Assembly (NCBI GenBank): GCA_024685535.1
Contig: JAIKVS010000040.1
Coordinates: forward strand, 1 to 52,805
Reading direction: 5' to 3'
Length of the DNA: 52,805 bases
Origin: Oscillospiraceae bacterium
GTDB taxonomy: Bacteria; Bacillota; Clostridia; Oscillospirales; Oscillospiraceae
Below are positions 1-11,502 of this stretch, in pieces. The notes under the pieces were generated by a model, which ran no database searches, was not told the DNA's origin, and saw only the letters and a list, made by a program, of their open reading frames with translations. Both the position numbers and the translations under genes were made by a program. How positions within the stretch are numbered: the first letter of the stretch is position 1; each line of letters starts with the position of its first letter.

Positions 1-177
1 TGCAAGATTGGCGAGTTTCTTTACCCTGTACTGCCGGTCAAGATTCTGCTCCGCATCCAACAGCCTGTCCTCCATTGCCTCTATCCTGTCTTTGCCGGTG
101 CCTTGCCTGACAGCAGCTTTTGCTCCTGCCAGATGTTTACCCCCTGTATTGCGTTTTGAAAAAATGTTTCTGTTCAT
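1..177 (-). CDS. Partial hypothetical protein (N-terminal 59 codons)
   Basis: An open minus-strand frame starts with ATG at 177 and runs off the left edge of the window. It begins MNRNIFSKRNTGGKHLAGAK and continues with a charged, probably helical stretch containing EAMEDRLLDAEQNLDRQY. The start lies 10 bases after the stop codon of the YwaF-like gene on the same strand, so the two are probably co-transcribed and perhaps translationally coupled. No clear AGGAGG precedes it. I do not recognise the family; the basic N-terminus followed by a likely coiled coil is all that can be seen. Confidence 0.45.
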   Translation of the reverse strand, partial: MNRNIFSKRNTGGKHLAGAKAAVRQGTGKDRIEAMEDRLLDAEQNLDRQYRVKKLANLA

Positions 178-187
178 GGGGAGATGC

Positions 188-1003
188 TTAGGATCTGCGC
201 CTGCGGGCAAGCATTGGGAGATAGAGGATTATGATCAGACAGGTCGCCATCGCTGCCCTGATCATCAGATACACTATCCACTGCCATTTTTCCGTGAGGA
301 TCAGACCGAGCGGATTGACATAGGAGGAAAAGAAGTTGATCCTGTGGCTTACTCCTACAACCTGATTTGCCATGTATATCTCACTTGAAAGCAGGGAGTT
401 AATATAAAATGTTGGCACGTCGAGAACCAGTATACCGACTACAGCCTTTTTCCAGTCACCGAAACGCAGTCCTGCCTCGTCACCGAAACCAATATAAAGG
501 CTCAGGGAGACTATCATTGAATGAAACAGGAAAAACTGCCATGCTCGGGGAGCGGAAAAGAACGCTGCGGTTGTTTCAAAATCACCAGCTATGGAAGACA
601 GGATTATACCCATCATACCGCCGATGGTACCGGAAACAAACATCAGAGCATAAAGACGCTTCTTCCACTTTTCGTCCTTTATGATAAGCGCCAGGGGCAT
701 GAAAAACAGATAGAGCGAGCATAGCTCCAGCGGCATATGCTCCATGGCGATGTAAGGAGTATATTCGCCGGTAGGTATCCATGCTATTGCCTGGCTGCCG
801 TTCTCGCTTGCTATCACCGGATCTACCATAGGCACTATCTGCGCAACCGAGAAAACTTTGATTACCTCTGAAACTATTCCGAGTATCAGGCAGACTTTAA
901 AAACATTTTTCAGAGCCGGTCTGCGTTTGAAGAGATACACGGATAAAACTGCGACAAGTACGGCAGAGATTAAAATCCATATCAGATGACCTTGAGAAAA
1001 CAC
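188..1003 (-). CDS. YwaF/TMEM164-family integral membrane protein
   Basis: This 271-residue protein is almost entirely hydrophobic, with six to seven probable membrane helices; the first is at about residues 8-24 (IWILISAVLVAVLSVYL). The pattern of polar residues between helices, with HMPLELCSLYLFFMPL in the middle, fits the bacterial YwaF (TIGR02206-type) membrane family, whose function is not established. The start is GTG at 1003, preceded by GAGGCGG at a suitable distance. It is transcribed away from the D-lyxose isomerase gene, so 1004-1167 holds divergent promoters, though I could not pick out clear boxes. The family name is moderately sure; the function is unknown. Confidence 0.75.
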   Translation of the reverse strand: MFSQGHLIWILISAVLVAVLSVYLFKRRPALKNVFKVCLILGIVSEVIKVFSVAQIVPMVDPVIASENGSQAIAWIPTGEYTPYIAMEHMPLELCSLYLFFMPLALIIKDEKWKKRLYALMFVSGTIGGMMGIILSSIAGDFETTAAFFSAPRAWQFFLFHSMIVSLSLYIGFGDEAGLRFGDWKKAVVGILVLDVPTFYINSLLSSEIYMANQVVGVSHRINFFSSYVNPLGLILTEKWQWIVYLMIRAAMATCLIIILYLPMLARRRRS

Positions 1004-1167
1004 TTTGATCCGCCTCTTTTCCAGCTGTTTATTGTCTGAATTAATTCTACAGTATCAGCAGTATGCGGGTCAAGAATAAATCAGAGCCTAATGATAAGAT
1101 GGTGTTGTTAATACGCTTATTCTCTGATATTATTTCTGAAAAAGATGATCTGAGGAGCTGGCTGTAT

Positions 1168-1860
1168 ATGAAAAGGTCGGAAATCAATGCGGCACTGAGG
1201 GAGATGGAGGCAATGTGCAGAAAAGAGCACTGCTATTTGCCGCCTTTCTGCTCTTTCACTCCGAATCAGTGGGAGAACATAGGCTGCGAATATGATGAGG
1301 TCCGTGACTGTATGCTGGGCTGGGATATTACTGATTACGGGCTTGGTGACTTTAATAAGGTCGGCATGTCGCTGATCACCATACGAAACGGTAACCGCAG
1401 CATTCCGGATAAATACCCGAAGGTCTATGCCGAGAAACTGCTGTATCTTAAGGAAGGACAGTACAGCCCAAATCATTTCCACTGGCACAAAACTGAAGAC
1501 ATTATAAACCGGGGAGGCGGTAACGTACTTATCAGAGTATTTAATTCTCTACCGGATGAGTCGATCGATCATGAGAAAGATGTCACTGTGCATATGGACG
1601 GCAGAACTTTCACCGTGCCCGCAGGGACACAGCTGAAGCTGACTCCGGGTGAAAGCATCCACATACAGCAGTTCCTGTACCATGATTTTGAGGTCGAACC
1701 AGGTACCGGGGCGGTTTTGCTTGGGGAAGTAAGCCAATGCAACGATGACAATACTGATAACAGGTTTGAACCTCCGGTCGGCCGTTTTCCTGCAATAGTG
1801 GAGGACGAGCCTCCTTACCGCCTGCTTTGCAACGAATATCCAAAAGCATCTAAGAAATAA
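1168..1860 (+). CDS. D-lyxose ketol-isomerase (D-lyxose/D-mannose isomerase family)
   Basis: The 230-residue product is a cupin-fold sugar isomerase that interconverts D-lyxose and D-xylulose and often also D-mannose and D-fructose. The segment NHFHWHKTED supplies metal ligands: His103, His105 and Glu110, with a later His at 172, close to the Mn-binding positions I recall for characterised D-lyxose isomerases. That agreement supports the ATG at 1168, preceded by GAGGAG ten bases upstream. A longer frame from 1063 would add 35 residues outside the family and has no ribosome binding site. A strong hairpin terminator follows directly. No transporter or kinase for the sugar lies next to it, so the physiological substrate is open. 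Confidence 0.88.
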   Translation: MKRSEINAALREMEAMCRKEHCYLPPFCSFTPNQWENIGCEYDEVRDCMLGWDITDYGLGDFNKVGMSLITIRNGNRSIPDKYPKVYAEKLLYLKEGQYSPNHFHWHKTEDIINRGGGNVLIRVFNSLPDESIDHEKDVTVHMDGRTFTVPAGTQLKLTPGESIHIQQFLYHDFEVEPGTGAVLLGEVSQCNDDNTDNRFEPPVGRFPAIVEDEPPYRLLCNEYPKASKK

Positions 1861-1891
1861 AAGAGCCTGGATCATAAGATCCAGGCTCTTT
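1860..1891 (+). terminator. Rho-independent terminator, probably the old tRNA-Pro terminator as well
   Basis: A perfect 14-bp stem (AAAGAGCCTGGATC with its complement) has an ATAA loop and ends in T residues; its 5' A-run can serve the opposite strand. It begins at the stop codon of the isomerase and abuts the left 45-bp repeat. Before the element inserted, the tRNA-Pro gene, read on the minus strand, would have run into this hairpin, so it probably served both genes. Confidence 0.85.
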
Positions 1892-1935
1892 GGTCGGAGT
1901 GCGGAGATTTGAACTCCGGGCCTCTTGGTCCCGAA
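1891..1935. repeat. attL: 45-bp direct repeat (tRNA-Pro 3' fragment)
   Basis: These 45 bases are identical to 11427-11471, which cover the CCA end, T arm, variable region and 3' anticodon stem of the tRNA-Pro gene. After 1935 the sequence departs from the tRNA (TTAACG instead of CCAAGC), so this copy cannot form a tRNA. It is the displaced chromosomal end of the target gene. Confidence 0.93.
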
Positions 1936-1969
1936 TTAACGAAGAAGTAGTGAAAAAAGTTGAAAAACC

Positions 1970-1998
1970 TTGATTTACTGCCATTTTCTTGGTATTAT
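1970..1998 (+). promoter_or_regulatory. Putative integrase promoter
   Basis: TTGATT at 1970-1975 and TATTAT at 1993-1998 are separated by 17 bp. Transcription would start near 2005 and give a leader of about 80 bases that contains the paired GTTGACAC motifs and the AAGGAGG ribosome binding site of the integrase gene. Confidence 0.55.
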
Positions 1999-2040
1999 AT
2001 AAGCGTAAAAATTACTATCTTTTAGCATCATTTAGTAAGT

Positions 2041-2068
2041 TTGTTGACACTTTTGTTGACACTTTTTT
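2041..2068. repeat. Left-end tandem GTTGACACTTTT repeats, putative integrase arm sites
   Basis: GTTGACACTTTT occurs twice in tandem at 13-14-bp spacing, just upstream of the integrase start. A pair of the same unit, in the same orientation, occurs near the right end at 11315-11340. Such shared sub-terminal repeats are expected for arm-type sites bound by the N-terminal domain of a tyrosine integrase. Confidence 0.6.
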
Positions 2069-2086
2069 CAAGGAGGATACCAAGAT

Positions 2087-3571
2087 ATGGCAACGATTAA
2101 GGCTAACAAGAATAAGGACGGAGATGTCATAAGCTATAGGGTGAGAGCTTGCATCGGCAGAGATGGTTATAACAAACAGATTTGGAGAACATGCACGATT
2201 GAACGGCCTGAAGGTCTCACACCTAAGAAGGAAGAAAAGGAGGTCATAAGACTCGCTGAGGCATGGGAAGAAGAACAGAAAAAGGATTATGCTCTTTCCG
2301 GGAACTCAGAGAAGAAGGTCGATAAGAATAAAATCACCTTCAGAGAGTTTGTAAATAACAACTGGATAAAGGACCACGTTCTTGACGGAACGCACTCTCC
2401 GAGCAGCGTATATTTCTTCAAATATATGGCAGAGGACCTTATAGAATACTTTGGAGATAAAAAACTGAGAGCCATAGACGGAGAGGCCGTGAAGAGATAT
2501 ATCTCCTATCTGAACAATGAAGCAAGGACCGCAGTATATGATTATCCGGAAGTCAGCAAGGTGAGCACAAGGAAGGCCAGCTCCGGAGATGTAACCATTA
2601 CATGGCCGAAGTATAAAGACGCTATATCCTACAAGGTCACTTGCAACAGAGGAAAAGCCTCACGCTATGTCTTTAAACCTATAGGAGAAACCACCGAGCT
2701 CTCGTTTGTCGATTCTCAGGCCACTGAAGGCTCGAAATACATAGTTAAAGCAAAGGTGAAGGGTGAAGGGGAGCCGTACAAGAAAAGCACCATACAACAC
2801 CATTTTGCGACACTGCGGAATATCATGGAATATGCTCGCAGATTTCACTATATAGACTTTGACCCTTGTCAGGACCTGTCCCAAAAGGAAAAGCCTCACA
2901 GAGATAAGAAAAAGGTCGATTTTCTAGCTCCAAAGGAGGCGGTCAGATACATGGATTGCCTGAAGAATGAGGAACTGTTTTGGAGAGTGTTTCAGAATGT
3001 GCTTATTACCACTGGTCTCCGGAGAGGTGAAGCGGTCGGCCTCCAATGGGGTGACATTGATCCGGAAAAGCTGACAATTACAGTGCAGCGTAATGTGACA
3101 GTTGATAAGGATAGCGAGAGCGGCTATCACATCGGAAATACAAAGACCGGAGAGAGCAGAACTGTTCCTATCAGCGAGAGACTATATAAGATGCTCATGG
3201 CCTTGAAGGCAGACCTTGAGAACAAGTTAAGCGAGAAAGACGATGATGGTAATATAGTCACTCAGGTCAGCATCTTTCCGAATGGCTTTATCTTCAATCG
3301 AGAACTTGACCCTTATACTCCGATATATCCGTCTACTCCTACAAGATGGCAGTCTGATTTTGTCAAACGGCACAACCTTCCGAACGTATCCCCGCACGAT
3401 CTTCGACATACTGCAGCGACACTTGCCTTGGAGAGTGGAGCCGATCTGAAGCAGGTGCAGGAGCTCCTTGGCCACAAAGACCCATCAACAACAATGGCGT
3501 TCTATGCCGGTGTGACAGATGAGGCAAAGAGAAGAACAGTTGAAGGTATAGAGAGTATAATAAATGGATAA
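2087..3571 (+). CDS. int: Tyrosine recombinase (integrase) with an inserted FN3-like domain
   Basis: The 494-residue protein catalyses site-specific integration and excision of the element. Residues 1-70 are an arm-binding-type N-terminus and the core-binding domain starts at about 84. The catalytic domain shows Arg312 in TGLRRGE, Lys353 in NTKTGES, His437 and Arg440 in HDLRH, His463 in LGH, and the Tyr473 nucleophile in FYAGV. All catalytic residues are present. The core-binding domain is split: between LNNEART (about 142-148) and YKKSTIQHHFATLRN (231 on) lie about 75 extra residues with the look of a fibronectin type III fold (VTITWPKYKDAISYKV). Most relatives are 370-400 residues long. ATG at 2087 follows AAGGAGG. 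The gene is beside attL, as expected for a self-mobilising element. Confidence 0.95.
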   Translation: MATIKANKNKDGDVISYRVRACIGRDGYNKQIWRTCTIERPEGLTPKKEEKEVIRLAEAWEEEQKKDYALSGNSEKKVDKNKITFREFVNNNWIKDHVLDGTHSPSSVYFFKYMAEDLIEYFGDKKLRAIDGEAVKRYISYLNNEARTAVYDYPEVSKVSTRKASSGDVTITWPKYKDAISYKVTCNRGKASRYVFKPIGETTELSFVDSQATEGSKYIVKAKVKGEGEPYKKSTIQHHFATLRNIMEYARRFHYIDFDPCQDLSQKEKPHRDKKKVDFLAPKEAVRYMDCLKNEELFWRVFQNVLITTGLRRGEAVGLQWGDIDPEKLTITVQRNVTVDKDSESGYHIGNTKTGESRTVPISERLYKMLMALKADLENKLSEKDDDGNIVTQVSIFPNGFIFNRELDPYTPIYPSTPTRWQSDFVKRHNLPNVSPHDLRHTAATLALESGADLKQVQELLGHKDPSTTMAFYAGVTDEAKRRTVEGIESIING

Positions 3572-3591
3572 CTGAATATATAAAAGAAATG

Positions 3592-3622
3592 AGCAGCACT
3601 GTAAAAGGTGCTGCTTTTTTAT
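3592..3622. terminator. Terminator between int and the convergent repressor gene
   Basis: AGCAGCAC (3592-3599) pairs with GTGCTGCT (3608-3615) and is followed by a run of Ts. It ends integrase transcription and overlaps the 3' end of the convergent repressor gene. Confidence 0.8.
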
Positions 3623-4293
3623 TTGCTTTGTTCATTTAGTAATTCTTTGTAATAATCAAGGCCTTGTCTTATAACAGTCATTTTCATTTCCTTATATAAG
3701 AAACCGAGCTTTAAAACCTCAGTAACCTCATCGCCTAGACAAACAGAGACAAGTTTGGAGATGTTCTCTGGGCCATACCTGACAGACAATTCGACGTTGT
3801 CAGAATGAACGTATTGATCCATATATGAGAATAACGTCTTAATATAAAACTCGTCACTTTTGGGAATATTGCTAGGATCGGACAAAACGAGGTTGATAAA
3901 GTTAAGAGTCCTTGAGCTCTCTTCATAATCCGATGTAGTGATAAGATGCAGCAAGTTAACAGCAGAGTCAGACAATCCGGTGTACTTACAGATAGCCTGA
4001 ACATCTGCGCTTGGAGAAAACACATCAGACTGACCTATGAGATAGTCCAACGAACAGCCAAAGAATTCAGCTATTTTTATGAGATTTGAAGTTTTTGGAA
4101 AGGTGCTGCCATCTCTATACTGTCCAATGGCCTGATCAGATACTTCGAGATGTTTGGCTAAATCTTGACGGACTTCAAGATCCTCAGTAAGGTCCTTAAA
4201 GCGTTTTTTGAAACCATTTTTGAGTATTTCATCGGTCAGTTTGTTTCTTGATACGTGCTTATCATCAATTAACTGATTCTTTTTCTCTGACAT
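3619..4293 (-). CDS. HTH (XRE/Cro-CI type) repressor of the element
   Basis: The 224-residue protein has a helix-turn-helix at about residues 42-85 (VRQDLAKHLEVSDQAIGQYRDGSTFPKTSNLIKIAEFFGCSLDYLIG), followed by a C-terminal region of about 130 residues that I cannot assign and that probably serves dimerisation or sensing. I chose the ATG at 4293 because GGGAGG lies eight bases upstream; a frame from 4341 would add 16 residues without a ribosome binding site. It is divergent from xis and the replication gene, the place occupied by the master repressor (Stl or CI-like) in satellites and prophages. Its promoter overlaps an inverted repeat (see the next entry), which suggests autoregulation. How the repressor is relieved is not visible; no LexA-type protease dyad was recognised. 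Confidence 0.85.
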   Translation of the reverse strand: MSEKKNQLIDDKHVSRNKLTDEILKNGFKKRFKDLTEDLEVRQDLAKHLEVSDQAIGQYRDGSTFPKTSNLIKIAEFFGCSLDYLIGQSDVFSPSADVQAICKYTGLSDSAVNLLHLITTSDYEESSRTLNFINLVLSDPSNIPKSDEFYIKTLFSYMDQYVHSDNVELSVRYGPENISKLVSVCLGDEVTEVLKLGFLYKEMKMTVIRQGLDYYKELLNEQSK

Positions 4294-4332
4294 AACTATA
4301 GCCTCCCGCAAAGCAATGCTTTCAATATAATC

Positions 4333-4391
4333 ATTATACAAATTATTACTTGAAAGTCAATGACATTATATGATACAAACTAATCAAGTAA
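4333..4391. promoter_or_regulatory. Divergent promoter region with inverted operator half-sites
   Basis: On the minus strand TTGACT and TATAAT are 16 bp apart (4360-4333), a near-consensus promoter for the repressor. On the plus strand TTGAAA at 4350 is followed 17 bp later by a weak ATACAA. TTACTTGA (4346-4353) and its inverse TCAAGTAA (4384-4391) form an inverted pair 30 bp apart; the first lies in the spacer of the repressor promoter. They are candidates for repressor binding. Confidence 0.55.
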
Positions 4392-4420
4392 AACTTTGAT
4401 ATAGGAGGTAATCAGAAGTA

Positions 4421-4621
4421 ATGCTTCAGAAGTTTGAAAATGCGGGTACATCGGTTAGTTGCCCAAAGATGATGACCATCAAGCAGGTCGCAAGCACTGG
4501 CCTTCTCCCGGAACATGCACTCCGTACCGGTGTAAAGGAAGGATGGATCCCTCACGTTAAGAGTGCTAGCAGAGTCTATATCAATTACGACAAGTTGGTC
4601 GAGAAACTGCAGCAGTGCTGA
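4421..4621 (+). CDS. xis: Excisionase-like helix-turn-helix protein
   Basis: The product has 66 residues and contains a winged-helix segment of the excisionase/MerR-like small DNA-binding type (MTIKQVASTGLLPEHALRTG followed by VKSASRVYINYDKLVEKL). Such proteins bend attachment-site DNA and direct the integrase towards excision. It is the first gene transcribed away from the repressor, as in satellites and ICEs. AGGAGG lies about 11 bases before ATG 4421. An internal start at MMTIKQ would give a more typical length of about 50 residues but has no visible ribosome binding site. The stop codon lies 21 bases before the primase start, so the two are in one operon. Confidence 0.8.
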   Translation: MLQKFENAGTSVSCPKMMTIKQVASTGLLPEHALRTGVKEGWIPHVKSASRVYINYDKLVEKLQQC

Positions 4622-4642
4622 AAGCAGGAGGAGGTGGCGAAA

Positions 4643-6868
4643 GTGCCAGCTATACAGAATAATCCTTCCGAAATGGCGCTGGCAGCTCTGGCCTATTGCA
4701 AGCAAGATGGCTGCCGGCCAGCCTTGAAGATTTTTCCGGTCGGCAAAGACAAAAAACCTTTGATTGCAGACTGGCCAAACAAAGCGACATCAGACGAAAA
4801 AACAATAAAAGATTGGTGGACACGCTGGCCTGATGCAAACATCGCCATGGCCACAGCCGGCTTCGTTGTAATCGATATTGATGAACACGACCCTGCTGCA
4901 AGTGGCAGCGAGAGTCTCCATGATCTAGAACTTCAATATGGGGAGCTTCCTGATACCCCGGAGCAGATGACTCCCTCAGGCGGGAGACACATCATTTTAC
5001 AATATAAAGGAACAGACATCACTGTAGGGACCGGACTAGCTCCAGGAATCGATTGGAGAGGTAACGGCGGGTACGTTGTAATCGCTCCGAGTGTTCTCGC
5101 TGATGGCAGGTCATATGAATGGGAGGCAGGTCACGATCCGAGAGATACACCTCTTGCAGAGCTTCCTGGATGGCTGCATGATCTGATAGTAGAAAAACGA
5201 ACTGCGAGGTCATCACAAGGGCCAGCCAGGGCCGCGCCAAAGATAGAATTACCGGAAACGATTCCCAAAGGTGAACGGAATGACACGCTGTTCCGGATGG
5301 CATGTTCCCTAAGAGAGAAGAATCTGACAGAAGATGAAATGCTTGTCACTCTGAAAGAGATGAACAGGACCCGCTGCGATCCACAGCTCACTGAGAGGGA
5401 GCTCAAGCAGATTGCATCCAGCGCGGCAAAGTATGATCCTGGAGATCTTCCAAAACTCCCGCAGGATTATCGACCTCCGGATCTCTCTGACGCGGGTAAC
5501 GCTGAAGCGTTTACCAAGACTGTAAAAGGTCGGATGCTGTGGTGTGATGCACTGGGCTGGCTCTGCTGGGATGGCATGAGATTTGCACAAAATGACCATG
5601 CTGCCACTGCGCTGGCGATTGAATGGGCGCAGCGACTTTTAGATTATGCTACCGAACAATACAGGCATGAGCTTAGAACAGATCCTGACACTGGCAAAAT
5701 CGTAGTATCAGAGGCTACAAAAAAACTGCTGCAGCATGCACAGAAAACCCGCAGCGCAGTATCAATACAGAACTTTATGAATCTGTCAAAAGCCTACCTG
5801 CATATCCGAGCAGATCAACTAGACTCGCAGTGGTGGAGCCTTAATACACCGGCGGGAATCGTAGACCTCCGGACCGGCAAGACAGGACCACACGATCCGA
5901 CAGCACTGTTCACGACCATTACAAAGTGCTCACCATCTGATGAAAATATGGAGATGTGGACGACCGCCCTTGATATTGCATCTTGCCACGATTCTGCCTG
6001 GATAGATTACGACAACATGACTGAAGGGTCGATGCTGTTTGGAAAGATATTCAAAGAAGGGATCCTGATAAAGAAGGGCCCAGGGAGAAACATGAAAAGC
6101 ACTCTCACAAATGCAGCACTTCAAGTGCTAGGAGACTACGGCGGGACAATAGACAGCGCGATCTTGACCACTGACCGGCAAAATCGAGGGGCAGCACTTG
6201 CAACACTGCGCGGGAAAAGGATGGTCGTATGTGGCGAGCTTGAGGAAGGGCAAAGGTTAAGTGTTGCCACATTAAAGAAACTGGCCAGCACGGACCCGCT
6301 GACCATCGAAGCAAAGTATAAACAGCCTGAGACGATAAATCCATCGCATCACCTGATCCTATATACAAACTTCCTGCCTAGAGTGGGCAGCACTGACACC
6401 GGGACCTGGAGAAGGATTTCGGTCCTTCCATATGATGCTACGATCCCTGAAGGTGATGGAGACATTCCAAACTACGCCGATGAACTGGTTAACAAGGCGG
6501 GAGGCGCGATCCTGAAATGGCTGATAGATGGAGCTGTAAAATTCTTTCAAGCCGGCTGCCGAATAGATGCACCTGAGTGTGTTCGCCAGGCTACCGAGGA
6601 TTACCGAGCTGGAGAAGACTGGCTGCAAGGATTCATATCTGAGCGGTGCATCGTTGACAGAGATGCCAAAGAGCGGGCTGGGGTCCTTTATGACGAGTAT
6701 AAAGACTATGCTGTTTCTATTGGAGACTACTGTCGCAGGGCTACAGACTTTGTGAAGGCTATGGAGCTCGCCGGTTTCCGGTCAGTGACTGTGAACGGCA
6801 AAAAGTACTGGCTGGGGATCTCAATCAACTACGCTGAAAGTAGCTCGGCTTCTTCTCGAGTGAGCTGA
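4643..6868 (+). CDS. Primase-polymerase / SF3 helicase replication protein
   Basis: The 741-residue protein combines priming and unwinding for autonomous replication of the element. Residues about 10-180 are a prim-pol domain with the DxD-type motif VIDIDEHD, SGGRHI and DWRGNGGYVVIAPS. A PriCT-like helical region (PKGERNDTLFRMACSL...) and a D5_N-like region follow. The C-terminal SF3 helicase shows a P-loop GPGRNMKST, Walker B-like GKRMVVCGELEEG, sensor-type LILYTNFLP and arginine-finger WRRI. The P-loop has Met where Gly normally precedes the Lys. GTG at 4643 lies eight bases after AGGAGG; GTG at 4634 is in frame but sits two bases from that site. An AT-rich repeat region just downstream may be its origin. 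Confidence 0.92.
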   Translation: MPAIQNNPSEMALAALAYCKQDGCRPALKIFPVGKDKKPLIADWPNKATSDEKTIKDWWTRWPDANIAMATAGFVVIDIDEHDPAASGSESLHDLELQYGELPDTPEQMTPSGGRHIILQYKGTDITVGTGLAPGIDWRGNGGYVVIAPSVLADGRSYEWEAGHDPRDTPLAELPGWLHDLIVEKRTARSSQGPARAAPKIELPETIPKGERNDTLFRMACSLREKNLTEDEMLVTLKEMNRTRCDPQLTERELKQIASSAAKYDPGDLPKLPQDYRPPDLSDAGNAEAFTKTVKGRMLWCDALGWLCWDGMRFAQNDHAATALAIEWAQRLLDYATEQYRHELRTDPDTGKIVVSEATKKLLQHAQKTRSAVSIQNFMNLSKAYLHIRADQLDSQWWSLNTPAGIVDLRTGKTGPHDPTALFTTITKCSPSDENMEMWTTALDIASCHDSAWIDYDNMTEGSMLFGKIFKEGILIKKGPGRNMKSTLTNAALQVLGDYGGTIDSAILTTDRQNRGAALATLRGKRMVVCGELEEGQRLSVATLKKLASTDPLTIEAKYKQPETINPSHHLILYTNFLPRVGSTDTGTWRRISVLPYDATIPEGDGDIPNYADELVNKAGGAILKWLIDGAVKFFQAGCRIDAPECVRQATEDYRAGEDWLQGFISERCIVDRDAKERAGVLYDEYKDYAVSIGDYCRRATDFVKAMELAGFRSVTVNGKKYWLGISINYAESSSASSRVS

Positions 6869-6883
6869 AATAACTGGCAGGGT

Positions 6884-6964
6884 GGGACATGGTGGGGGCT
6901 AAAACCAAAACTCTCTATATATATTTTCTCTATATATACTTTTGTATTTAGCCCTAACCATCCC
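6884..6964. other. Candidate replication origin: AT-rich repeats inside an inverted repeat
   Basis: Directly after the replication gene there are two direct repeats of TCTCTATATATA (about 6912-6940). They are flanked by an imperfect inverted repeat: GGGACATGGTGGGGGCTAAA at 6884-6903 and TTTAGCCCTAACCATCCC at 6947-6964. CCCTAACC occurs in slightly varied form three times at the right side. Origins of phage satellites usually lie next to pri-rep and combine AT-rich DNA with short repeats. No function is proven; it could also be a regulatory hairpin before the 7007 gene. Confidence 0.4.
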
Positions 6965-7006
6965 TAACCCTAAAAAATATATAGAAATATTAAGGAGATT
7001 GAATCA

Positions 7007-7435
7007 ATGAATAGGAACTATTTGGAGCACTTGAAGACCTGCCTCGATGTACTCGAAGGAAGGGTAAGACCACAGGGAGCAATCTATGAACGTTATTATG
7101 CCTCCAGGATGGAAAATGCACCGCAGAAATGGGCAGAGAGCACGGAGACCAGTCATATATCCCTGGTACTGAAAAAGCTGCTGGAAGCAGAGGAAAACAA
7201 CTACGAACGCGCAAAGACTTCTCTTCGGGACGAACACATACTGGCAGTGGAACGGATCAAGGACGAAGCAAATATAGCTTGTACTCTAGTCAGGTCCATA
7301 CTGGGAGACGATGCCCAAAAGCGTGATTTTGCAATCGGATATATAAAAGCAGAGCTTGCTGCCTGTCCTGAGGGCACTGATAACGGCAGCGATCTCAAAG
7401 CATATGATACAGAGACCGAATATGATTGGTCATAA
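7007..7435 (+). CDS. Hypothetical protein, 142 residues
   Basis: ATG at 7007 follows AAGGAG with nine bases between. The protein is acidic and mostly helical, with a central charged segment (LVLKKLLEAEENNYERAKTS) that could form a coiled coil, and a tail rich in Asp and Glu. It has no membrane segment, no cysteine cluster and no motif I recognise. It is the first gene of the downstream operon of the element, behind the AT-rich repeats, with 18 bases to the next gene. Its position suits a small accessory or replication-linked protein, but that is only context. Confidence 0.7.
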   Translation: MNRNYLEHLKTCLDVLEGRVRPQGAIYERYYASRMENAPQKWAESTETSHISLVLKKLLEAEENNYERAKTSLRDEHILAVERIKDEANIACTLVRSILGDDAQKRDFAIGYIKAELAACPEGTDNGSDLKAYDTETEYDWS

Positions 7436-7453
7436 AGGAGGTGATCCCGCAGC

Positions 7454-7675
7454 ATGACGATACCATCGCAGACAAAGCCGCTGCACGTTGAGAAAATTGT
7501 TTTCAATGACGGCAGCAGTATAACCGGCGCTGATGCTTTTCTCTTCAATGGCTTCCTGGTTGTGGATGATGGCCGGCACGAGGCTCCGACCTGGCACAAC
7601 GTGGACACTGTTGACCGCCTGGAAGATGTGACCTATGTAGAGGCAAGGCAGCGCGTATCACTGTCAAATTGGTAA
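7454..7675 (+). CDS. Hypothetical protein, 73 residues
   Basis: ATG at 7454 has AAAGGAGG upstream. The short product contains alternating hydrophobic residues (VEKIVFNDGSSITGADAFLFNGFLVVDD) that suggest a small beta-sheet protein. It ends with TYVEARQRVSLSNW. I do not recognise a family. It is tightly packed between two other small genes of the same operon, so it is very likely a real gene. Confidence 0.65.
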   Translation: MTIPSQTKPLHVEKIVFNDGSSITGADAFLFNGFLVVDDGRHEAPTWHNVDTVDRLEDVTYVEARQRVSLSNW

Positions 7676-7687
7676 TTGGAGGACACA

Positions 7688-7882
7688 ATGGCAAAAGCAT
7701 GTAACAACTGTGAGTTTTATAATCCGGAGCTAACGAAGCAAACCATCATTTTCAATCCCGGCACCGGCTGCGAGTATATGAAACGAACAGGCCGATATGC
7801 AATTGCAGTTAAAGGAAACTGCACCGATTTCAAACCTAAAAATAACGACAAGGAGATTAAAAACAATGGCGTACACAAGTAA
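7688..7882 (+). CDS. Small cysteine-containing protein, 64 residues
   Basis: ATG at 7688 is five bases after GGAGG; an in-frame TTG at 7676 overlaps that site and is not a likely start. The product begins MAKACNNCEFYNPE and has two further cysteines (GTGCEYM and GNCTDF). Four cysteines in 64 residues, one pair as CxxC, suggest binding of zinc or another metal. The 3' end overlaps the start of the next gene by 17 bases, which points to translational coupling. Function unknown. Confidence 0.65.
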   Translation: MAKACNNCEFYNPELTKQTIIFNPGTGCEYMKRTGRYAIAVKGNCTDFKPKNNDKEIKNNGVHK

Positions 7883-8450
7883 AACCTTAATCAAACAGAA
7901 TCTGAAGGCAGAGATGCACGATTACCGCATGGCACACGAACAGGCACAGGAAGCCTCCAAGGCTGCACGGCTCGCAGCCGGCAAAGCACCGATCTCCGGA
8001 AAGATTACCGAGGACAATCAGCGCAGATGGTTTATCAACAAAGGTACTGTGCTCAAAGATAAGGCGCTCAGAGAGCTGGACTATTGGAGAGATCAGGTAA
8101 CCCGCGCAAAAACTACAGCACCTTCCGAAGATGCACTCAGAGCTATTCAGGCCTTCAAGCTGAGATCACCCAAGACGATGACCCGCGAGGAATATCAGGC
8201 AGAAGCTCAGGAGCTGGCCGATTCCGTCAAAGATAACTATTCAGCGTATGCAACGATCTACGATATAGCGGCAGAAAATGGCGCTCACATTGCACTGCAC
8301 CCATTTGCTGAAGAGATAAAAGCTTTTGAGTCTGTTGAACACAATATCCGCAGCTACTTCAATCCGGTGATTGATGCCGGTGGCAGCGGCCCTTCTGCCG
8401 GCCGTGAAGCCCTTAACGCAATGATCCTGGATGAACTCATGGGAGAATGA
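7866..8450 (+). CDS. Hypothetical protein, 194 residues
   Basis: ATG at 7866 follows AAGGAGATTAAAAACA and gives MAYTSKTLIKQNLKAEMHDY. The N-terminal half is Ala-, Lys- and Gln-rich and helical (AHEQAQEASKAARLAAGKAP), the middle carries REEYQAEAQELADSVKDN, and the C-terminal third is less charged. No catalytic motif is evident. The gene overlaps the small cysteine gene before it and ends one base before the head-completion-like gene. A virion-associated or scaffold-like role is possible from composition and position, but I cannot support it by homology. Confidence 0.7.
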   Translation: MAYTSKTLIKQNLKAEMHDYRMAHEQAQEASKAARLAAGKAPISGKITEDNQRRWFINKGTVLKDKALRELDYWRDQVTRAKTTAPSEDALRAIQAFKLRSPKTMTREEYQAEAQELADSVKDNYSAYATIYDIAAENGAHIALHPFAEEIKAFESVEHNIRSYFNPVIDAGGSGPSAGREALNAMILDELMGE

Positions 8451-8451
8451 T

Positions 8452-8709
8452 ATGGCAAGGAAGAATGTAAAATTCGAACTCAATCTCAAAGGTCTAAACG
8501 AACTGATGAAGTCACCGGCGATGAAGTCCGTAGAGATGGAAGCCGCCCAAAGCATCGTGGGCCAGCTTGGACCGGGTTATACAGTGGAGCCCCCTAAGAA
8601 TATGTCATTTGTTGCGATCACTACTGTTCATGCAAGTGATCCAAAAGCTTTTCAGGATTGTCGTGAGAATGATGTTTTGAGAAAGGCAGCAGACAGCACT
8701 AAAATATAA
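8452..8709 (+). CDS. Phage head-completion / minor virion protein-like, 85 residues
   Basis: The product starts MARKNVKFELNLKGLNELMK, has MEAAQSIVGQLGPGYTVEPP in the middle and ends with a variant of the DNL-NNTLLKA-type tail (ENDVLRKAADS). This arrangement is seen in small structural proteins encoded in the head-tail connection region of Firmicutes siphophages (HK97 gp10-like or neck-type). ATG at 8452 is one base after the stop of the preceding gene. No other capsid gene lies in the element, so it may interfere with or substitute for a helper-phage component, or be a relic. The family call is a reading of pattern, not of a search. Confidence 0.55.
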   Translation: MARKNVKFELNLKGLNELMKSPAMKSVEMEAAQSIVGQLGPGYTVEPPKNMSFVAITTVHASDPKAFQDCRENDVLRKAADSTKI

Positions 8710-8830
8710 CAGGCTTCCTGGCTGAAGGAGTTAAGAAGGCCCTCCCTCCCTGGCTTCTCATGTTTTCGGTTGAAGGTGAAAGAGAATATTATCGGCAGAT
8801 GGATTATCAAAAAAAATATTTTATACAAAT

Positions 8831-8900
8831 ACCTTCTCCTGAGGGTGGGGAGGGACCCCCTCGGCCTCCCTTCGGCGCCCCCCTCGCGCAAGCGCCGATT
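8831..8900. other. GC-rich block before the terminase-like gene, candidate packaging (cos-type) region
   Basis: In an otherwise AT-leaning intergenic stretch (8710-8936), about 70 bases are runs of G and then C: GAGGGTGGGGAGGGACCCCC, followed by C-rich sequence. GGCGC (8874-8878) pairs with GCGCC (8892-8896). Comparable GC-rich blocks lie just upstream of small-terminase genes in many cos-type prophages of Firmicutes, as I recall. It could instead be a terminator or leader. The remaining intergenic DNA shows nothing else I can assign. Confidence 0.35.
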
Positions 8901-8936
8901 TCACGCACAGATCTAAATCACCAAGGAGGTGAAACA

Positions 8937-9200
8937 GTGAGTTTAGCAACAATAGTTGAATCCAACGATAATTTGGCTATGCTGCGAGCATTGCGCAGAA
9001 AGCTTGCAGAGACCATAGACACAACAACCAGCGCGCGTGATCTCCCGGCACTATGCCGGCAGCTTCAGAGTGTTTCCGAAAGAATCACAGAGCTGGAGGC
9101 GCAGCAAAGTGATGATCCTATAGGAGAGATCCTCAAGGAACGGAGCAGGCGGCCGCTGCGAGACAGCAACAGAAAAACAATATATCAGGATAACGAATGA
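8937..9200 (+). CDS. Small phage protein, small-terminase-like, 87 residues
   Basis: GTG at 8937 follows AAGGAGG at good distance. The core, LRALRRKLAETIDTTTSARD followed by LPALCRQLQSVSERITELEA, is the helical motif found in small proteins annotated as terminase small subunit or neighbours in actinophages and Firmicutes phages. In such phages this gene lies next to cos and before the large terminase; here the large terminase is missing. In satellites a small terminase redirects the helper's packaging machinery to satellite DNA. That role here is inference, and the protein is shorter than most small terminases. The in-frame extension upstream to 8760 crosses the GC-rich block and is unlikely to be translated. 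Confidence 0.5.
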   Translation: MSLATIVESNDNLAMLRALRRKLAETIDTTTSARDLPALCRQLQSVSERITELEAQQSDDPIGEILKERSRRPLRDSNRKTIYQDNE

Positions 9201-9210
9201 AGGAAATGAT

Positions 9211-9417
9211 ATGGAGATTATACGAAATTGCCCGCATTGTGGCGCTTCATGCAGCCTGGTGTTGAAGCAAAACCTTAAAGGTACAATGTATACATTTGTT
9301 CAATGTGATGGCTGCCGGGCGCAATCTCGAACTATACGGATTGTTGACTCGACCGAGGAAGCACAGGCAATGGCAATAACATTATGGAACCGGAGAGATA
9401 AACATAACGGAGATTAA
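9211..9417 (+). CDS. Lar-like zinc-ribbon protein, 68 residues
   Basis: Two CxxC pairs (NCPHCGAS and QCDGCRAQ) and a C-terminal AITLWNRRD match the restriction-alleviation Lar family of small phage proteins, in which a zinc ribbon is followed by a helix ending in WNRR. In lambdoid phages and the Rac prophage, Lar modulates a type I restriction system, but most Firmicutes members are untested. ATG at 9211 has a weak GGAAA site and lies ten bases after the terminase-like gene, so it is part of the same operon. Family likely; function in this element is inference. Confidence 0.7.
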   Translation: MEIIRNCPHCGASCSLVLKQNLKGTMYTFVQCDGCRAQSRTIRIVDSTEEAQAMAITLWNRRDKHNGD

Positions 9418-9441
9418 AACTAATCTTTCAGGTGAGTAATC

Positions 9442-10050
9442 TTGAACGATGTTTCACAGTTAGCTTTATCCATCCAGCGAGGCCGCGATGACCTGATCCC
9501 GGAACTATGGGAGGCCGTCCGCGGCCTTGTGGGATGGTTTGCAATGAGGTTTTATCTGCTCAGGGAAGATGAATGTAACCGGCATAAGATTGAAGTCGAG
9601 GATCTTGTCCAGGAAGGTTTTTTCGCATTGCTCGACAGTATCAGGAAGTATGATCCTGAGAAGGGAGCTTTCAGCACCTTCCTTGCCTGGGATCTCCGGC
9701 ACGGCTTCCAGGCTGCCATAGGGAGAACTACTCGACAACGTGGTGACATGCTTAATAATTGCCTGTCGCTTGATGCAGAGCTGGATTCCGAAGATCCTGA
9801 CAGTGAATCGTTGATTGACTATATTTCTGATGGTGTAGACTATGCCGCTGCGGTCGAGCACAAAGTCTATCTGCAGCAGCTCCGTGAAGAGCTTGAAAAG
9901 GTGCTGGCTGCGATCCCGGCAGAACAGGCTGAAGTGATAAAGGAATCATTCTACAACGGCAGAACACTAACAGAGATTGCTGCCGCTAAAGCTCAGACGG
10001 TCGAGAACATCCGCAGAAAAAAGGAAAACGGCCTCCGTGAACTTAGGTGA
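9442..10050 (+). CDS. Sigma-70-family factor, probably C-terminally truncated by an in-frame TGA
   Basis: The 202-residue product has region 2 (EDLVQEGFFALLDSIRKYDP, then FSTFLAWDLRHGFQAAIGR) and region 4 with a helix-turn-helix (LPVLAA-type segment IPAEQAEVIKESFYNG, then LTEIAAAKAQTVENIRRKKE). It would direct RNA polymerase to promoters of the element or of a helper phage. The start is TTG at 9442 after AGGTGAG. The same frame continues beyond the TGA at 10048 with SKYIHELERFVDLETNFYRP, which resembles the C-terminal tail of phage sigma-like proteins. The full form would end at 10212. The truncated protein still has both core regions, so it may be active. Confidence 0.8.
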   Translation: MNDVSQLALSIQRGRDDLIPELWEAVRGLVGWFAMRFYLLREDECNRHKIEVEDLVQEGFFALLDSIRKYDPEKGAFSTFLAWDLRHGFQAAIGRTTRQRGDMLNNCLSLDAELDSEDPDSESLIDYISDGVDYAAAVEHKVYLQQLREELEKVLAAIPAEQAEVIKESFYNGRTLTEIAAAKAQTVENIRRKKENGLRELR

Positions 10051-10212
10051 AGCAAATATATCCACGAGCTGGAGCGATTCGTTGACCTGGAAACAAACTT
10101 CTATAGGCCATCGTCAGTGAACCGCTTTAATGCTTCCCATACTTCCGTAGTCGAGGAGCTTGTCCTATTCCGAGAACGAAAGCGAGGTGAATACTATCGC
10201 AGTATATGTTAA
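10051..10212 (+). pseudogene. In-frame continuation of the sigma-factor gene beyond TGA
   Basis: Reading on from the sigma-factor stop gives 53 further sense codons, with HELERFVDLETNFYRP, SSVNRFNASHTS and VVEELVLFRERKRGEYY, then TAA at 10210. The composition and the ELERF...TNFYR...HTS.VEE.V..RE pattern look like conserved protein rather than random sequence. No ATG, GTG or TTG with a ribosome binding site opens this frame near the TGA. A single CGA-to-TGA change would explain it; stop-codon readthrough is the alternative. Confidence 0.55.
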
Positions 10213-10375
10213 AAACGGCGATCTTGATTCTGCACTTGAAGTATTCAAGAAGCAAACGTCAAAGGGCCATATAGTTGATGATTACAACGATCAGAGCTCT
10301 TTCAAGAGCGATCACCAGCGACGGCGGGATAAACAATGGCAGCGCGAAGTAAAACGGCGTAGAAAGCAAAAATAA
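10187..10375 (+). CDS. bS21-like small basic protein, 62 residues
   Basis: From GTG at 10187 the product reads MNTIAVYVKNGDLDSALEVF, then KKQTSKGHIVDD, and ends in a very basic helix (QRRRDKQWQREVKRRRKQK). This follows the plan of ribosomal protein bS21: a short beta strand, the DxALxxFKK helix, a KxG turn and an Arg/Lys-rich C-terminal helix, at the right length of about 60 residues. The central RKRExYEKP motif is not conserved, so it is divergent. Phage genomes are known to encode bS21 homologues thought to enter host ribosomes. The gene overlaps the readthrough end of the sigma frame by 26 bases. No strong ribosome binding site is visible. A longer TTG start at 10160 is less likely. Confidence 0.5.
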   Translation: MNTIAVYVKNGDLDSALEVFKKQTSKGHIVDDYNDQSSFKSDHQRRRDKQWQREVKRRRKQK

Positions 10376-10391
10376 TAGCGATTAATGGAAA

Positions 10392-10434
10392 GCGCCAGGA
10401 GGCCGAAAATATGCTTCCTGACGCGTGCTTTTGT
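10392..10434 (+). terminator. Probable terminator of the phage-gene operon
   Basis: GCGCCAGGAGG (10392-10402) pairs with CTTCCTGACGC (10414-10424), with one mismatch and one G-T pair, followed by GTGCTTTTGTT. It lies between the bS21-like gene and the convergent minus-strand gene. Confidence 0.55.
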
Positions 10435-10443
10435 TGATTCAGC

Positions 10444-10884
10444 TTAGAAATGCAGCTCTAAGCTATTATCTAATTTATCAAGATTCTCAGCAACAAGTGA
10501 TATAGCAGCATTAAGAAGTGAATAATACTTAACGGCCCAATCGGCGGCCTTATGAACGCGATCTTCGAGGCTGCCTGACCCTTCTGTTAAACTTCCGTTA
10601 AAGTCACGTTCATCAAAGCAGCTCTGCATTAAACCTACAAGCAGATCCCTGTTCAGTATGATTGCATATCTGACTTCTTTATCAATGTAATCGCTGTTGA
10701 TCCTGTCAAAGTCATTGTTTTCTACTTCGTTAATCTTTCCCATTGCATGAACACCGGCAGCATATGCCAGCTTGATGGCCTCATCCTGATCCGGAACCGC
10801 GGCAATAAGATGCAGCAGCTCATTCTGCTGAAGGGCAATCTCCTTAGGAATGTTGTTATATTCTGTCGTTTCAAGTTTTCTCAT
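10444..10884 (-). CDS. Unknown accessory protein, 146 residues
   Basis: ATG at 10884 has a perfect AAAGGAGG site. The protein is acidic and helical, with VPDQDEAIKLAYAAGVHAMG near the middle, DREVRYAII-type polar helices after it and a C-terminal LLNAAISLVAENLDKLDNSL. There is no signal peptide, membrane segment or catalytic motif that I recognise. It is transcribed against the rest of the element, divergently from a ribbon-helix-helix gene, in the right-end region where satellites carry accessory genes for defence, immunity or virulence. Its promoter contains a 14-bp palindrome, so it is regulated. Function unknown. Confidence 0.75.
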   Translation of the reverse strand: MRKLETTEYNNIPKEIALQQNELLHLIAAVPDQDEAIKLAYAAGVHAMGKINEVENNDFDRINSDYIDKEVRYAIILNRDLLVGLMQSCFDERDFNGSLTEGSGSLEDRVHKAADWAVKYYSLLNAAISLVAENLDKLDNSLELHF

Positions 10885-10922
10885 GTGCTTTCCTCCTTTT
10901 ATTTCGGCAATGCCGTTGCTTC

Positions 10923-10981
10923 ATAATAACACATATACCGGTATATACTCAATATTTCACTCTGCATAAATCTCTACCGGT
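10923..10981. promoter_or_regulatory. Promoter with palindromic operator between the divergent right-end genes
   Basis: On the minus strand TTGAGT (10952-10947) and TATTAT (10928-10923) are 18 bp apart. The spacer contains the perfect palindrome ATATACCGGTATAT (10933-10946). A second ACCGGT core occurs at 10976-10981. A ribbon-helix-helix dimer typically binds such short palindromes, and the gene for one starts at 11060. A binding protein here would block the promoter of the 10884 gene. Confidence 0.6.
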
Positions 10982-11059
10982 TGATTTGTAATGGTTGCCT
11001 AATGACCACAATGGAGCTGCTATGATAGAATAAACTATCTATCACTAGGAGGCGATCAC

Positions 11060-11287
11060 GTGGCAAGGCCAACAAAGCGAACGGCTGACGAAAAGAAAGA
11101 GCAGCAGAAGGCAGCACAAAAACGATATATTGAGAAGCTGGCTCGCGTTGAGATCACCATGCCTCCGGAACGGAAACAGCAGATTCAGGATCATGTTAAG
11201 GTAACAGGGGAGAGCATCAATCAATTCCTTAACCGAGCAGCAGAGGAAACCATTGAAAACGATATAAAAGACAAGGCCGAGGAGTGA
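11060..11287 (+). CDS. Ribbon-helix-helix (Arc/CopG-like) DNA-binding protein, 75 residues
   Basis: GTG at 11060 follows AGGAGG. A Lys/Glu-rich N-terminal helix leads into RVEITMPPERKQQIQDHVKV and TGESINQFLNRAAEETIEND. This is the strand (xVxITMP), helix, GESINxFLxRA helix order of the Arc/CopG superfamily. Such proteins are small repressors or antitoxins. Divergent placement to the unknown 146-residue protein and the palindrome between them suggest it controls that gene and itself. Whether the pair is a toxin-antitoxin module is open, because the partner has no recognised toxin fold. Confidence 0.82.
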   Translation: MARPTKRTADEKKEQQKAAQKRYIEKLARVEITMPPERKQQIQDHVKVTGESINQFLNRAAEETIENDIKDKAEE

Positions 11288-11314: not shown

Positions 11315-11340
11315 TTTGTTGACACTTTTTGTTGACACTC
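11315..11340. repeat. Right-end tandem GTTGACAC repeats, putative integrase arm sites
   Basis: TTTGTTGACACTTTT is followed at once by a second TGTTGACAC, in the same orientation and nearly the same spacing as at 2041-2068. The copies sit about 90 bases inside the right attachment site and about 105 bases inside the left one. Confidence 0.6.
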
Positions 11341-11388
11341 ACTGTTTTGCGGAAAACCACCATCTTTGAAAAGTTACAAAATGCAATA

Positions 11389-11426: not shown

Positions 11427-11471
11427 TGGTCGGAGTGCGGAGATTTGAACTCCGGGCCTCTTGGTCCCGAA
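11427..11471. repeat. attR: 45-bp direct repeat within tRNA-Pro
   Basis: This copy is identical to 1891-1935 and forms the 3' half of the intact tRNA-Pro gene. The identity ends at the anticodon region (base 11472 differs), which places the strand-exchange point in or near the anticodon loop or stem, the usual target for tyrosine integrases. Confidence 0.93.
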
Positions 11472-11502
11472 CCAAGCGCGCTACCATCTGCGCTACACCC
11501 CG
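11427..11502 (-). tRNA. tRNA-Pro (anticodon CGG)
   Basis: The 76-base gene folds into a cloverleaf: acceptor CGGGGTG with CACTCCG, anticodon stem CTTGG with CCAAG and loop TTCGGGA, giving anticodon CGG, a T arm with GTTCAAATC, and an encoded CCA. It is read on the minus strand. Its 3' half was supplied by the integrated element. Confidence 0.95.

Follow-up and report, generated by a model that had tools for sequence, protein, structure and literature searches.

A cos site paired with a cos-phage-type TerS gene in a 9.5-kb integrated element, a probable cos-type phage satellite of an Oscillospiraceae bacterium

A GC-rich block and the small gene behind it, both located in the window (the whole 52.8-kb stretch of Oscillospiraceae DNA that was analysed), are in all likelihood the packaging unit of a 9.5-kb integrative cos-type phage satellite. 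As judged by sequence comparison, the block (positions 8841-8901) is a cos site like that of phages whose gene order is HNH-cos-TerS-TerL. Since the island carries this cos site, a terminase small subunit (TerS) gene and a neck gene while lacking any further packaging or particle gene, it is very probably packaged, and spread, by another phage. The initial annotation had proposed a candidate satellite packaging unit at this place, a reading which is supported by the att repeats, the size and gene set of the element, and the existence of partly parallel elements.

The element comprises 9,536 bp and is bordered on both sides by a perfect 45-bp direct repeat. As expected of a phage satellite, a specific att site (the 45-bp repeat at tRNA-Pro) is combined with an integrase of its own, and genes for its own regulation and replication accompany an incomplete set of particle genes (Table 1). 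All annotated island genes are open frames. TerL, portal and capsid proteins were not found among the island proteins scanned against Pfam, PHROGs and NCBIfam, and no reading frame of the window was matched at E <= 10 by the large-terminase and HNH profiles of the cos phage group, in agreement with the earlier statement that no large terminase is present.

Table 1. Features of the integrated element, with positions in the window and the evidence for each assignment.
Feature	Position	Strand	Evidence
attL	1891..1935		45-bp copy of tRNA-Pro 3' end; 100% identical to 11427-11471, spacing 9536 bp
Tyrosine integrase	2087..3571	+	Pfam Phage_integrase 4e-27; PHROG 1 integrase 6e-67
Repressor (HTH, RstR/Cro-like)	3619..4341	-	NCBIfam RstR 1e-10, under its cut-off; PHROG transcriptional regulators
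Small DNA-binding protein, candidate excisionase	4421..4621	+	Weak PHROG DNA-binding match and position
Prim-Pol / D5-type primase-helicase, replication module	4634..6868	+	Pfam Prim-Pol 9e-37, D5_N 2e-17; TIGR01613 P4-family primase 1.7e-52
194-aa protein upstream of neck gene	7866..8450	+	Open reading frame; no family match at E <= 0.01 (Pfam, PHROG, NCBIfam scans)
Type I neck / head-tail connector protein	8452..8709	+	PHROG 387 neck protein 4e-7; cos-phage-group profile E = 1e-17; AlphaFold pLDDT 89
cos site (by profile match)	8841..8901	+	Phage cos profile E = 1.6e-8, only window match; R1 39.2 bits; 0/3000 shuffles
cos left arm GGGGAGGGACCCC	8847..8859	+	Conserved in phage cos alignment
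Predicted cohesive end CCCCTCGCGCA, 11 nt	8880..8890	+	Between GGCGCC (ends 8879) and AGCGCC (starts 8891); boundaries from phage contig ends
Terminase small subunit (TerS)	8937..9200	+	PHROG 1459 1e-10; profile of 42 phage TerS (window's excluded) E = 2.6e-17
Lar-like zinc-ribbon protein, restriction alleviation family	9211..9417	+	Pfam Lar_restr_allev 9e-10; TIGR03655 over cut-off
Phage-type sigma-70 family factor	9442..10050	+	PHROG 351 7e-24
Arc-like DNA-binding protein, common to window and L374	11060..11287	+	46.6% identity to L374, E = 8.7e-14; PHROG 13890
attR	11427..11471		Inside tRNA-Pro(CGG) 11427-11502 (-); right repeat copy = tRNA 3' end

The block had been described as GC-rich in an AT-leaning context, and this was confirmed: it contains 75% GC as against 37% and 43% in the flanking 100 nt. 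All 61-nt stretches of the window that reach 75% GC fall within 8832-8908, and the block is part of this maximum. The initial route to its phage counterparts was a search for the neck protein in the host family, which led to phages L040 and L041. In both, HNH is followed by a GC-rich block, a small gene and TerL, and their blocks resemble that of the window. A single copy of the motif GGGGAGNNACCCC-(20-45 nt)-GCGCC is present in the window, 100 shuffles having yielded none, and the pattern GGGGAGNNACCCC-N20-45-GCGCCRAWWT was present in ten viral contigs, with the site located 3' of an HNH gene in nine of them. The looser pattern GGGGAGNNACCCC...GCGCC gave mostly chance matches in viral contigs and genus genomes, and a reversed-pattern control matched the genus too. 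As this pattern proved unspecific, only the full cos profile was used. For its construction, 80 viral contigs were picked by their HNH protein alone and the DNA 3' of the HNH stop codon was excised. Fifty non-identical regions anchored at the right arm were then aligned, and the window was left out to avoid circularity; the anchor requirement excluded some HNH regions, and the profile represents the majority type.

When run against the 52.8-kb window, the profile yielded a single match, namely the block, the runner-up having E = 1.3. All 3000 shuffled versions of the block stayed below 30.3 bits (highest value, 7.5), and the sequence-only model R1 recognized the site as well (Table 1). The arms characteristic of the phage sites are present in the same order and orientation, i.e., the left arm GGGGAGGGnCCCC, GGCGNC, a gap of 11-12 nt (11 nt in the window) and the right arm AGCGCCGATTT, while the right flank is less conserved in the window (TTTCACGCACAGATC vs TTTACACACAAGG). 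The closest cos match in blastn, phage contig MT839591 with the order HNH-cos-TerS-TerL, is 79.5% identical to the block over 71 nt. Similarity to phage cos regions, chosen beforehand as the test on which the proposal could fail, is thus strong by profile, R1 and blastn. The TerS gene follows the window cos at normal spacing. The HNH gene expected on the other side in phages is absent from the window, as is to be expected of a satellite.

Positions of the predicted cut were read from the physical ends of public contigs. Fifteen of the 80 HNH-selected contigs terminate less than 80 nt past the HNH stop codon, ten of them directly after (G/A)GCGCC, GGCGAC or a close variant, and 24 of 80 TerL-selected contigs begin exactly at AGCGCC. 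The gap between the two boundaries is 11-12 nt in most phages and 11 nt in the window (GGCGCC(8879) - 11 nt - AGCGCC(8891)). The absence of these 11-12 nt from both contig ends would fit 3' overhangs that were lost in library making, and the boundaries predict that the island is cut at 8879/8891. Because contigs of the phage group often begin or break off at cos, public assemblies can be used for reading cohesive ends, and a cos consensus with cut positions obtained in this way allows elements to be located from their packaging signal alone. Contigs with a start or stop exactly at cos include L291, L383, L195 and others in IMG/VR.

The gene behind the block, for which a terminase-like pattern (LRRKLAETID...SARDLPAL) had been noted, turned out to be a real gene with a GTG start codon at 8937, an AAGGAGG ribosome-binding site just 5' of it and a product of 87 amino acids assigned to PHROG 1459 ('terminase small subunit'). 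A profile iterated from two phage seeds to 42 proteins, the window protein not included, matched this product only among all frames of the window. The relatives are encoded directly before TerL in 42 of 42 cases and behind cos in 39 of 42; the distance from the start of the cos match to TerS is most often 75-120 nt in relatives and 96 nt in the window. Similarly, a scan with the TerS alignment recovered 43 viral loci, 41 of which have the TerL motif downstream; the other two (L405 and L420, without TerL motif by regular expression) carry a large-terminase-like gene with a portal-like gene behind it. This usual context with adjacent TerL is lacking in the window, where the Lar-like gene and the sigma factor gene occupy the place 3' of TerS instead. 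Membership of the window protein in PHROG 1459 hence rests on homology and not on a neighboring TerL, and the missing TerL beside TerS marks a satellite.

Direct tblastn of the window TerS against the phages gave no match, viral contigs scanned with TerS and primase as single proteins yielded nothing, and blastp of the window TerS against that of phage L193 produced no alignment, the link being made by profile. Since single-sequence searches came back empty, profile methods were needed. Of the genomes searched, a single one contained the TerS of this element. Its structure model is helical and of moderate quality (pLDDT 75.5) and was left out of the evidence.

Upstream of the block lies a neck gene that was not part of the initial annotation. 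Its product was the only window frame matched by a neck profile built from phages of the cos group. In Foldseek, its AlphaFold model matched viral neck/connector proteins, with no match of the model in the PDB. In phage L266 (3639-4418), HNH and cos are immediately preceded by a neck-like gene that is 38% identical in the alignment. An L266-like genome end may have been the source of the neck-cos-TerS arrangement.

The window was further compared with HNH-cos-TerS-TerL phages from the host family and from viromes (L040, L041, L193 and L273), in which the cos architecture is as in the window. The TerS family is common to the window and phages L193 and L273, the neck family to the window and phages L040 and L041. 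HNH and TerL genes are present in these phages, as are portal and capsid genes if the stretch is of sufficient length, whereas the window has none of these. In a scan of 401 host-family genomes with R1, strong sites were obtained in phages of the HNH-cos type and in L374 (G374:C27, 503-8163). The latter is the end of an island with a cos site at 4647-4715 (E = 3.6e-10) and an adjacent tRNA-Gln; its left part is lost at the contig end, so that no integrase or attL was seen. Primase, sigma factor and Arc-like protein of L374 are 46.6%, 35% and 46.6% identical to those of the window, respectively, and no terminase or HNH gene is among its listed frames. L374 is probably a cos-only satellite. L051 (IMGVR_UViG_3300021387_004035, 1-11116) is circular (11,009 bp), as judged from a terminal repeat of 107 nt, and carries cos, TerL, a TerS-like gene, part of a scaffolding protein gene, and genes for a sigma factor, a primase/helicase and an integrase; it is a probable satellite with more packaging genes. 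Both parallels are partial: gene order differs (the sigma factor gene of L374 precedes cos), and in L051 the TerS-like protein and the primase belong to families other than those of the window, the only window matches being the sigma factor and, weakly, the integrase. Weak R1 matches were also seen in the genus, and the four inspected (E 6e-5 to 4e-3) were not phage cos regions.

Capsid-forming PICIs (cf-PICIs) carry phage morphogenesis genes, including connectors. They have capsid, portal and TerL genes of their own, none of which was found in the window element. The canonical gene order of Gram-positive PICIs is int and stl leftward and xis-pri/rep rightward; in the window, by contrast, int (+) and the repressor gene (-) converge. 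As in PICIs, cos and TerS come after the primase/rep module. The primase is of the type found in P4-like satellites (TIGR01613), a domain common to many phages, and the names psu, sid and delta did not occur among the matches of the general Pfam, PHROG and NCBIfam scans.

PICIs use either TerS or a helper-like cos (PMC6092414), and PICMIs package concatemers (PMC10803314). Like the window element, the cos-type SaPIs SaPIbov4 and SaPIbov5 are small integrative satellites; they carry the helper cos and depend on packaging by a helper cos phage (PMC5052747). To this scheme the window adds a neck protein, a Prim-Pol/D5 primase and a sigma factor, and no ccm-like capsid gene was found in the element. 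Of the pac packaging operon, SaPIbov5 retains only the 3' part of terS (PMC5052747), whereas the window TerS is intact and of the cos-phage kind. EcCICFT073 and other Gram-negative PICIs, for which full-size heads were argued, are likewise cos satellites without capsid genes; EcCICFT073 has no TerS and two cosN sites (PMC6092414), as opposed to TerS and one cos in the window. In pac SaPIs with terS, the satellite TerS together with the helper TerL favors satellite DNA (PMC5052747, PMC6092414). However, it recognizes pac for headful packaging, while the window TerS is of the cos-phage type and encoded beside cos. A limited literature search found no description of cos combined with a cos-phage TerS in the absence of TerL, and the element is best read from its sequence as a variant of the cos-type satellite with this combination.

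In the proposed cycle, a helper phage would induce the satellite, which would excise at tRNA-Pro and replicate by its own primase-helicase. The satellite TerS would recruit the helper TerL and HNH nuclease to the satellite cos, and cutting at 8879/8891 would create 11-nt cohesive ends. One or several units would then be packaged into helper heads (the element measures 9.5 kb, the phage contigs ~30-37 kb), the satellite neck protein would act at head-tail joining, and late satellite genes would probably be under the control of the sigma factor. Several points count against this reading. The host's own assembly (~81% complete) contains no prophage with this TerL or cos, and related TerL proteins in the genus belong to other packaging types without this cos. 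The right flank of the block is less conserved, the truncated L374 shows neither integrase nor attL, and the TerS of the element was found in a single genome of those searched. An own TerS is encoded in the window, whereas known cos satellites have none of the cos type. It is suggested only tentatively, and may well be wrong, that a lineage of cos satellites hijacks its helper twice, in the choice of DNA (own TerS-cos) and in head-tail joining (own neck protein). If so, an own neck protein could cause satellite-filled heads to be tailed preferentially or phage heads to be denied tails, and members of the lineage would differ in their packaging set: none (L374), TerS and neck (window), or TerS, TerL and a scaffold piece (L051). 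With cos and a cos-phage TerS but neither TerL nor HNH, competition with the helper's own DNA becomes directly testable.

That cos, TerS and neck gene are leftovers of a decayed prophage, the rest of which was deleted, is unlikely. All three derive from one phage group, and the position of the neck-like gene of L266 directly before HNH-cos means that a deletion could have made them neighbors; yet the att repeat is still perfect, the annotated reading frames are open, fragments of TerL or HNH are missing throughout the window, and primase and sigma factor resemble those of another small cos island (L374). Very improbable is an anti-phage island in which TerS and neck protein only interfere with phages and cos serves as a decoy: satellites often interfere at packaging (PMC5052747), and phage TerS and neck are indeed carried without the rest of the particle, but the combination of cos, att, integrase and replication module is the one needed for transfer, and the accessory genes scanned contained no known defence family, the sole match being the repressor via its HTH. 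A transcription terminator or other RNA structure, named in the initial annotation as the alternative that would overturn it and suggested by the GC-rich GGGG...CCCC dyad in an intergenic gap, is hardly credible given the lack of a stem plus T-run and of an Rfam family at the block, a fold no better than that of shuffles (z = -0.19), and the specific match to phage genome ends.

Two minor observations concern the integrase of the probable satellite. Its Pfam SAM-like matches are split (residues 84-142 and 228-261), and at residues ~148-226 it has ~80 additional residues, of fibronectin type III-like reading, between the SAM-like and the catalytic parts. Tandem 16-nt repeats TTTGTTGACACTTTTT are located at 2040-2067 and 11315-11343, close to both att sites, and are possibly integrase arm-binding sites.
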